A DNA stretch of 64,000 bases from Gemmatimonas sp. GTDB lineage: Bacteria; Gemmatimonadota; Gemmatimonadetes; Gemmatimonadales; Gemmatimonadaceae. Below, piece by piece: positions 3,396-22,946 of this stretch (position 1 is the stretch's first letter; each line of letters starts with the position of its first letter). The notes under the pieces were generated by a model, which was not told the origin of the DNA, did no database searches, and was given only the letters and a program-made list of their open reading frames with translations. The translations under genes and the position numbers were made by a program. The stretch is taken from the NCBI GenBank assembly GCA_021154325.1, contig JAJKIR010000118.1, positions 1 to 64,000 on the forward strand. The letters run 5' to 3'.

Positions 3396-6038
3396 CTAAA
3401 CAGCGCGCCCCACTCCGCGGACGACTCCCTCCACGCGCCGACTCGGATCGAAATAGCGCTGCGCCAGCCGCTGCATGCGCTCCGCCGTCACCCCCCGCAC
3501 GCTCCGCTCGAATGTTTCGAGATCGCTCAACTGCCCGAAGAGCCACGCGTCGATGACGTCCCCCAGCACCGCGCTCCCGCTCTGCTGCTGGATCGCGTGT
3601 ACTCCAATGGCGTACGTCTGCGCCCGCTCGAGCTCTTCGGCCGTCACCGGCTCGGTGCGCAGCCGTTCGAATTCCGCCAGCAAGCCGTTCCGCGCCGCCT
3701 CCTCCTTATCCGGCGACGTCGCGATGTACGCGCCGAATGTGCCGGCCGCGCGCCGCGTCGAGCTGAACGCCGTCACCGTGTAGCATAACGACTGCTTGTC
3801 GCGCAACTCGTCGAAGAAGCGCCCACCCAGACCGCTCGCCACGCTCGCGATCATCGACGCGGCGAAGCGATCCGGGTCCGTGCGGGTCGGTCCGGGAAAG
3901 AGCAGCCCCATTGCTGTCTGCGCCTTGTCTCGGCGCTCCGCGCTCGTCACGGCACTCGCCGGCCATTCCGGTGTCGTCAGACGCGACGGCTCGGCGCGAC
4001 CCAGCTCGGCGAACTCCCGCGCCGCGATCGCCGCGAGTGCGTCCGGGTCGCCGTCGGCCACGATCACCACTACGGGACTGGCCTCGGGACCGAGCAGCTG
4101 CTCGCGGTGCCACACCGCGACGTGCGTGTGCTCGATTGCGCGCAGCGATTCTTCCGTTCCCGTTGCCGGTACGCCATACGGGTGCCCTCGAAACGCCGCC
4201 TGCGTCGCCAGTCGCATCGGATAGCGAAACATGTCGTCCCGTGACGCGATGACGTCGGCGATCGCGACCGCGCGTTCCGTCTCCAGTGCTTCGGGTTCGA
4301 ACGTCGGGTGCTGCGCGACGTCCGCGAGCAGCGCCATCGCTGCGCTCACGTAGCTTGTCGGCACCGAGATGGTCCACCCGAAGCTGTCCGATCCGACCGA
4401 TCCCCCGACGCTCCCCCCGAGCATCTCCGCCTCCTCCGCAATCTGGAGCGCCGTGCGCGTCGTTGTCCCCTTCTGCGCGCTCCGCACCATCAACGTCGTG
4501 AGTCCGGCGCTCGCCTCCGTCTCCGCCGTCGCGCCCCCGAGCGCGAACACTCCGACGTGGACGAGCGGTGCACCAGCCTTCAGCCTGACGAGAATCGGCA
4601 GACCCGACGCCACCCGATACACGATCACTCCAGCCTGCTCGCGCTCGCGCCGCACTATCGGCTCGTTAGGCGACGCTGACGGCGGCCGGTACGGCGCGCT
4701 CGGCGGCAAAGCGTCGGCGCGGCGGCCTTCGAGTAGCGCCAGCATCGCGCCCCCGTCCGCGGCCACGGGAGCGCTCTCGTTGGGCCGGTAGACGATGATT
4801 CCCGCCTGTTCCGGGGCGAGGTACCGATTCGCGATCTCGAGCAGCTGCTCACTCGTTGCCGTCAGGAGCCGCTCGATGTACCAGTCGCCCAGCTTCCAGT
4901 CGCCGAGTGCCTCCCACTCCGCGAGGTGGTTGGCCTGACCTTCCATGTCCTCGAATCGCCTCACCCACCGCGACTCGTACAGCCGCTTCGCGCGCGTCAG
5001 CTCGTATTCGCCGACTCCTTCCTCGCGAACCCGTCGCAGCTGATCCCACGTCGCGATCGCCGCATCCTGCGTCGTCGAGGGCTGCGTCTCGGCGTGCACC
5101 ACGAAGACCCCCAACTCCGTCGGGGTGTAATCGTACGCGCTCACCGCGGCGGCGAGCTTGCGCTCCCGCACCGCACGATAGAGTCGTGACGCGCGGCCGG
5201 CGCCCAGCACCATTGCGAGGAGATCGAGCGCGGGCGTGTCGACGTGCAGCGTGCCCGGCGTGCGCCATCCCATCGTGAGCTGCGTCTGTCCGATGTCGCC
5301 GGCGAGCTCGCGGTATCGGAAACCGCCCGTTCCTTCCTCTGTCGGCCCGGGTGATCGCGTCGGTGTTCCGCCCGGCAACCCACCATACAATCGCTCCACT
5401 TCCTGCATCGCGGCGTCAGGGTCCACGGCGCCGACGATCGAGAGGACGGTATTCCCGGGATGATAGAAGTTGCGATAGAAGCGCAGCATCGCATCACGCG
5501 TCAGTGCCCGCAAACCCGGCTCGCGCCCGATACGCCAGCGACGAATGCGATGCTTGTCGTGCAGCAGCTCGTACAGAGTTTCTGTCGCAACGGCGGCCGG
5601 ATTGTCCGCCTTCCGCTTCGCTTCCTGAATGATGACCTCGAGCTCTCGCGCCAGCTCCTCGGAATCGATCAGCGAGTTGGCGTACGCGTCCGCCTGCACC
5701 TCGAGTCCCTGGCGGAAACCAGTGGACGGAAGAACCGTGTAGTAGCTCGTGTGATCGTAGATCGTCGCGGCGTTGAGGTAGCCGCCAACGGCTTTCGTCT
5801 GTTTGGCGATCTCTCCGACACCACGGGTCGGCGTCCCCTTGAAGTACATGTGCTCGAGGACGTGAGCGATGCCGACGACGTCGTCGGTCTCGTCGAAGTA
5901 GCCCGCGCTCACGTACGTCACGATGGCGACGACGGGCGCGGAGAAGTCGGGCTTGATCAGAACCTTGAGTCCGTTCGGCAGCACGGTGCGGTTCACGGTC
6001 GCCGAATCAATGCCGAATAGCGGGGTGGTGGTGGTCAT
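3396..6038 (-). CDS. M16 family (pitrilysin-like) zinc metallopeptidase, two M16 domains
   Basis: HVLEHM (HxxEH zinc motif) near N-terminus, 880 aa, second M16-like half. Confidence 0.9.
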   Translation of the reverse strand: MTTTTPLFGIDSATVNRTVLPNGLKVLIKPDFSAPVVAIVTYVSAGYFDETDDVVGIAHVLEHMYFKGTPTRGVGEIAKQTKAVGGYLNAATIYDHTSYYTVLPSTGFRQGLEVQADAYANSLIDSEELARELEVIIQEAKRKADNPAAVATETLYELLHDKHRIRRWRIGREPGLRALTRDAMLRFYRNFYHPGNTVLSIVGAVDPDAAMQEVERLYGGLPGGTPTRSPGPTEEGTGGFRYRELAGDIGQTQLTMGWRTPGTLHVDTPALDLLAMVLGAGRASRLYRAVRERKLAAAVSAYDYTPTELGVFVVHAETQPSTTQDAAIATWDQLRRVREEGVGEYELTRAKRLYESRWVRRFEDMEGQANHLAEWEALGDWKLGDWYIERLLTATSEQLLEIANRYLAPEQAGIIVYRPNESAPVAADGGAMLALLEGRRADALPPSAPYRPPSASPNEPIVRREREQAGVIVYRVASGLPILVRLKAGAPLVHVGVFALGGATAETEASAGLTTLMVRSAQKGTTTRTALQIAEEAEMLGGSVGGSVGSDSFGWTISVPTSYVSAAMALLADVAQHPTFEPEALETERAVAIADVIASRDDMFRYPMRLATQAAFRGHPYGVPATGTEESLRAIEHTHVAVWHREQLLGPEASPVVVIVADGDPDALAAIAAREFAELGRAEPSRLTTPEWPASAVTSAERRDKAQTAMGLLFPGPTRTDPDRFAASMIASVASGLGGRFFDELRDKQSLCYTVTAFSSTRRAAGTFGAYIATSPDKEEAARNGLLAEFERLRTEPVTAEELERAQTYAIGVHAIQQQSGSAVLGDVIDAWLFGQLSDLETFERSVRGVTAERMQRLAQRYFDPSRRVEGVVRGVGRAV

Positions 6039-22334: not shown

Positions 22335-22946
22335 ATGCACCGAAATGCACGTCCACCGGCGGTCGCGATGCTCGCGCTGGCACTCTCATTCGCGTCCGCT
22401 CACAGCTTGTTTGCTCAACAGCCCGCGGCACCCGTCACGCCGACGCCCGAGGTCGGTTCGATGGCGCCCGACTTCACGATCTCCGGAGCGACTCGATATG
22501 GCCTTTTGCGCGACTCCGTGCGGCTCTCGGATTTCCGTGGACAGACCGTTGTGCTTGCCTTCTTCTTCCAGGCAAGGACCAAGGGCTGAACGATCCAAAT
22601 GGAGGCGTACCGTGATCAGTACGCCACGCTCTTCAACAACGGAAAGAAGGTCGTCGTCCTCGGCGTGAGCGTCGATGCCGACACGATGCTCGCCAACTGG
22701 GCCCGTGAATCGAGCTTCCCGGTGCTCTTCGGTAGTGATCCCGATCAGAAGGTCGGGAAGCTGTATGGATCCACCCGGGGCAAGTTGGACAGCCGCAACC
22801 TTTTCGTTATCGGCCCCGACGGACGCATCACCTTCAAGCAGATTCCCGTCAACGTGCTCTCCCAACAAGAGTACGCCGAGCTGGCCAAAGCAGTCGCCCG
22901 CACCGTGGGAGGCACGGCCGCCAGCAGCTCCGGCGGACCGGATTAG
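22335..22946 (+). CDS. candidate selenocysteine-containing secreted peroxiredoxin (AhpC/TSA-Bcp-like), read through in-frame TGA at 22587-22589
   Basis: Track ORFs 22311..22589 and 22599..22946 share frame and join as ...GQTVVLAFFFQARTKG[TGA]TIQMEAYRDQYATLF...; TGA replaces the peroxidatic Cys of the G-C-T-x-Q motif. Confidence 0.75.
22604..22625 (+). promoter_or_regulatory. candidate bacterial SECIS stem-loop
   Basis: GGCGTAC-CGTGATCA-GTACGCC: perfect 7-bp stem, 8-nt loop with G as second loop base, starting 14 nt after the TGA. Confidence 0.6.

Follow-up and report, generated by a model that had tools for sequence, protein, structure and literature searches.

A Candidate Exported Selenocysteine Peroxiredoxin Encoded Across an In-Frame UGA Codon in Gemmatimonas sp.

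The Locus

The window analyzed here is a stretch of 64,000 nucleotides of Gemmatimonas sp. DNA (contig JAJKIR010000118.1, positions 1 to 64,000). Within it a single reading frame runs from ATG 22335 to TAG 22944–22946 and is interrupted only by TGA 22587–22589 (Table 1). An earlier note, made from the letters alone, had described two open reading frames in one frame split by this TGA and nothing else; re-reading confirmed it, the second listed frame starting at ATG 22599 in the same phase as the first. As the note also stated, the joined protein of 203 amino acids is free of cysteine; the TGA stands in the context ...FFFQARTKG-U-TIQMEAYRDQY... and the AhpC-TSA match (PF00578, residues 51–178 of P0001, E = 1.1e-22) crosses it, in keeping with the proposed redoxin fold on both sides. 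The gene is accompanied by a divergent gene for a glycine-zipper protein and, downstream, by a DUF4147/MOFRL (glycerate-kinase-like) gene. A promoter and terminator scan found nothing.

Table 1. Features of the candidate selenoprotein gene (window coordinates)
Feature	Position	Strand	Basis or detail
CDS, predicted exported Sec-peroxiredoxin	22335–22946	+	203 aa including Sec; one TGA read through; Pfam match and homologs with TGA
Predicted Sec-type signal peptide	22335–22415	+	MHRNARPPAVAMLALALSFASAHSLFA followed by QQ; cleavage site placed by eye; conserved hydrophobic stretch, low-pLDDT N-terminus
Phe codon at -7, in place of Prx-motif Pro	22566–22568	+	Non-Pro in 60/74 Sec forms; Pro in 25/25 Cys forms
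Catalytic Thr codon (-3 from Sec), TxxU motif	22578–22580	+	T/S in nearly all homologs
UGA, putative selenocysteine codon, peroxidatic position (residue 85)	22587–22589	+	Cys in 25 homologs, TGA in 74
bSECIS hairpin	22604–22625	+	Stem of 7 bp, GGCGUAC/GUACGCC (22604–22610, 22619–22625); loop of 8 nt, CGUGAUCA (22611–22618)
Active-site Arg codon (residue 154)	22794–22796	+	Arg invariant in Sec and Cys forms

Homologs and the TGA Column

Homologs were sought first in 60 relatives and then in 395 genomes of the phylum, and about 90 loci were fetched and aligned. They occur in all 60 relatives (E ≤ 0.001) and in 305 of the 395 Gemmatimonadota genomes (E ≤ 1e-30). Among 99 aligned Gemmatimonadota homologs the column of the window's TGA holds TGA in 74, a recurrence well beyond what chance would give, and Cys (TGC or TGT) in 25, as expected if U occupies the place of the peroxidatic Cys, and the Sec forms are spread over seven family-level groups of the class (f1, f2, f3, f4, f5, f7, and f9). 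The earlier note had regarded a random residue at this column, decay in sister genomes or a TGA confined to one set of reads as evidence against recoding. The close family carries only Cys or TGA there, the sister genomes show conservation and no decay, and dozens of independent genomes share the TGA, which excludes sequencing error. The sole other residues seen, Asp or Ala, belong to two remote paralogs (L059, L071), which are probably not peroxidases because these residues occupy the peroxidatic column. A single-protein search of genome contigs returned one close relative only, and a search of a plasmid collection returned distant peroxiredoxins only (<60% identity).

Selenocysteine Machinery and Sec/Cys Switching

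All four genes that the earlier note had proposed to look for (selA, selB, selC, and selD) are present in the window's own genome, an assembly of 241 contigs that is 79% complete. The selA and selB matches score 544 and 357 bits, and tRNA-Sec scores 77 bits, with the anticodon tca (UCA) according to ARAGORN. The selD gene itself contains an in-frame UGA (L061:3490–4540, contig C27 of G000) and tRNA-Sec follows it immediately (4605–4701).

Across the 60 relatives, 37 of the 45 that have Sec genes carry the TGA form of the peroxiredoxin gene, compared with 0 of the 15 that lack them (Fisher p = 9e-9). All 37 have at least two components of the Sec system above the curated cut-off, and the components missing from them fit incomplete assemblies. 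Thirteen of the 15 relatives lacking all four components were inspected and have the Cys form, the other two (G009, G012) showing remote stop-free matches only; eight of the 60 relatives have at least partial machinery and no TGA form of the gene.

Sec and Cys have been interchanged repeatedly, as a tree built with the Sec column masked needs at least seven changes, four of them forced by well-supported branches. Three genomes (G021, G090, and G107; L042, L114, and L115) hold two copies of the gene in tandem, one with Cys and one with Sec. In G033 (L039:1702–1749) the Sec system is absent and the Cys copy is nested in a Sec clade with support 93; the loop letters CGTGAT are kept, which suggests a Sec-to-Cys reversion, and may be a fossil of the hairpin.

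The bSECIS Hairpin

The hairpin begins 14 nt downstream of the UGA (28 nt, -11.8 kcal/mol, z = -3.4). Published constraints on bSECIS elements are a loop of 3–9 nt with a stem of 4–16 bp, a G among the first two loop nucleotides, a spacing of 16–37 nt and an MFE ≤ -7.5 (PMC13188914); the window hairpin lies within all four (8-nt loop starting with CGU, 7-bp stem, 21-nt spacing, MFE -13.7).

The codons of the hairpin are nearly fixed in the 74 Sec genes: Ala GCG in 73/73, Tyr TAC in 74/74, Arg CGT in 69/74, Asp GAT in 72/74, and Gln CAG in 74/74. Their mean codon entropy is 0.29 bits, against 1.20 bits for equally conserved amino acids elsewhere (p = 5e-4). The Cys genes mostly have CGC GAC at these codons, and the bSECIS hairpin is absent from them. 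At the outermost stem pair, which joins two wobble positions, 59 distinct sequences show GC in 29, CG in 12, and UA in 8, while pairing fails in 10, eight of these being A-A; none of 500 shuffles reached a covariation as high (RNAalifold and pair counts). The covariation is confined to this one pair, as most inner pairs never vary. In a divergent branch, two Sec forms (L056, L057) have His for Met at +4 from Sec and a loop starting with CGG instead of CGU.

A covariance model of the hairpin region (R1) has the window's peroxiredoxin gene as its sole match in the own genome, which means that any further selenoproteins encoded there must rely on hairpins of another kind. The model was rejected as a means of separating Sec from Cys forms, since it also matches Cys homologs (17–48 bits versus 77), and it is no independent test of the structure because the coding sequence is homologous in the Cys forms.

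Interpretation of the Locus

The locus very probably forms a single gene, whose product would be an exported peroxiredoxin with the AhpC/TSA fold and one selenocysteine, UGA being decoded as Sec through a bSECIS element. The recoding proposed in the earlier note is supported by Cys at the aligned column, Sec genes in the genome, the conserved bSECIS, and the recurrence of the TGA. In the proposed mechanism UGA 22587 would be decoded by SelA, SelB, tRNA-Sec, and SelD of the own genome, the hairpin directing the insertion; the selenol of residue 85 would then be oxidized by a peroxide, the putative substrate. Reduction would have to come from outside because the protein has no resolving Cys, most likely from a periplasmic TlpA-like thioredoxin that could in turn be fed by a membrane electron carrier of the CcdA/DsbD type.

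The AlphaFold model (pLDDT 88, low at the N-terminus) predicts a peroxiredoxin fold and its closest structures by Foldseek are those of Bcp and Prx1 (E 1e-13 to 1e-11). The TxxU motif is present in the AhpC-TSA domain (TKGU; PF00578) and the G-U-T-x-Q motif is conserved. Judged by their sequences, the members appear to be essentially single-chalcogen (1-Sec) proteins, most having no other Cys. The textbook active-site motif of peroxiredoxins is PxxxTxxC, of which the window protein has the T and, for C, the U, with Phe in place of Pro. Of the 74 Sec forms, 60 have Phe, Tyr, Ile, or Val at residue -7; the other 14, like all 25 Cys forms, have Pro. By raw counts Pro loss goes with the Sec form (p = 8e-14); after phylogeny the association is not significant, since well-supported branches provide only four independent pairs, of which about three go the expected way and none the opposite way. 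The peroxidatic placement read in the earlier note calls for one qualification: the active site departs from the textbook form, and the protein also falls short of the PrxU model (NF040737), with 46.9 bits, below its cut-off of 270.

With the proline missing, classical peroxidase activity is not to be assumed. The alternative that a selenoprotein is made here but acts as a Sec-dependent thiol-disulfide or other redox enzyme of the envelope, sharing only the peroxiredoxin fold, is unlikely but has some points in its favor: the Pro of PxxxTxxC has been lost in most Sec forms and kept in every Cys form, the protein passes no curated peroxiredoxin family of NCBIfam, and the CcdA-thioredoxin genes found near many homologs could also serve other thiol enzymes. 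Against it stand the conservation of Thr, Arg, and the G-U-T-x-Q motif and the absence of a CxxC or UxxC motif; a single chalcogen fits peroxide reduction better than disulfide exchange. A more speculative idea is that Sec made the canonical proline dispensable, giving rise to an exported, lineage-wide selenoenzyme with a remodeled active site (an aromatic residue for Pro) and a chemistry or substrate unlike those of classical peroxiredoxins, with Pro retained or restored in those members that use Cys for catalysis; we consider this doubtful.

Bacterial readthrough of UGA exists and Sec insertion at this codon is itself deduced, so that the UGA might be misread as Trp or Cys, be reassigned in the code, or act as a regulated stop with a short product. 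Such a reading is very improbable, as the TGA form tracks the Sec machinery, a tRNA-Sec with UCA anticodon is present and the alternative residue in the close family is always Cys. Code reassignment in particular was rejected: many of these peroxiredoxin genes themselves terminate in TGA, and Sec genes are present. A pseudogene or a sequencing or assembly error, with the TGA as a recent disabling mutation or artifact, is hardly credible and was rejected, for although a standard annotation would report the gene as split and the assembly is fragmented (241 contigs, 79% complete), the identical TGA is shared by 74 homologs that belong to several families of the class, protein conservation extends to either side of it, and synonymous sites are frozen just downstream.

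Predicted Export and Candidate Reductant

The proposed one-selenocysteine peroxiredoxin would work outside the cytoplasm. Its N-terminus resembles a signal peptide, as the earlier note had described, and a simple hydropathy rule detects an N-terminal hydrophobic segment accompanied by a basic residue in all 74 Sec homologs, from which we infer that the family is exported, presumably to the periplasm.

A gene for a periplasmic TlpA-like thioredoxin lies tail-to-tail after the peroxiredoxin gene at 34 of the 74 Sec loci (families f1–f5, f7, and f9), and at 31 of these a gene for a CcdA/DsbD-type membrane protein is also in view (PF02683, E = 7e-44 in L062). Members of the window's own genus do not have the ccdA-trx genes next to the peroxiredoxin gene; the own genome has ccdA and trx elsewhere, apparently split at two contig ends. 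That these genes neighbor a peroxiredoxin without a resolving Cys suggests a CcdA-thioredoxin relay, with the TlpA-like thioredoxin as the likely reductant. At two loci of the more distant Cys form (L072, L058) ccdA, trx, and prx are consecutive on one strand, an arrangement that resembles an envelope reducing operon.

A precedent for pairing an envelope peroxiredoxin with a DsbD-like carrier is the ScsB-reduced cell-envelope peroxiredoxin, which is among the substrates of that carrier (Cho et al., 2012, doi 10.1128/mBio.00291-11, as cited in PMC4491210). In the window's relatives it is a Sec protein that has CcdA and TlpA-like thioredoxin genes as neighbors. The envelope peroxiredoxin of the precedent is not known to be a Sec protein.

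Relation to Known Selenoproteins

Peroxiredoxins with Sec in a TxxU motif form an established family (PMC9312934, PMC13188914), with 91 proteins in 78 organisms (PMC5029168). The window protein shares with this family (COG1225 Bcp; PrxU of Eubacterium acidaminophilum; PMC9312934, Table 1) the AhpC/TSA fold, TxxU, Sec for the peroxidatic Cys, and a bSECIS; it differs in its predicted export, in the lack of other Cys in most members, and in the usual loss of the PxxxTxxU proline. Among solved structures, the closest in sequence are thioredoxin-dependent thiol peroxidases of the BCP/PrxQ type (2ywn, 2cx3, and 3drn), which also rank with the best fold matches, but the window protein reaches only 52 bits against NF006960 (cut-off 140), has a signal peptide, and lacks a resolving Cys. 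The UxxC Prx-like thiol:disulfide oxidoreductases and the UGC Prx-like selenoproteins (PMC9312934, Table 1) have PF00578 and Sec in common with it, whereas their motif is UxxC or UGC and that of the window protein is TxxU with no partner Cys.

The literature searched, limited to accessible papers, holds no earlier report of a Sec peroxiredoxin in Gemmatimonadota, and this subfamily, which is spread through the lineage, is predicted to be exported and falls outside the curated PrxU model, is apparently undescribed. Gemmatimonadota are largely soil-dwelling; about three quarters of the sampled genomes hold the subfamily and most inspected close relatives have it as a Sec protein, so annotation of UGA as a stop would truncate it across the phylum. 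The natural Sec/Cys switches, among them the tandem pairs and the Cys gene nested in the Sec clade, lend themselves to comparative work on the reasons for using Sec, on whether it relaxes the need for the peroxiredoxin proline, and on the recycling of an exported enzyme with one Sec.

The own genome encodes a second selenoprotein candidate, of the Bcp/PrxQ type (G000:C64:6255–6638; L053:1720–2163, - strand). A simple rule detected no hairpin in this gene; its TGA lies at the peroxidatic position in the motif TPGUTVEAC, a resolving Cys is present, and it scores 152.9 bits against NF006960, over the cut-off.
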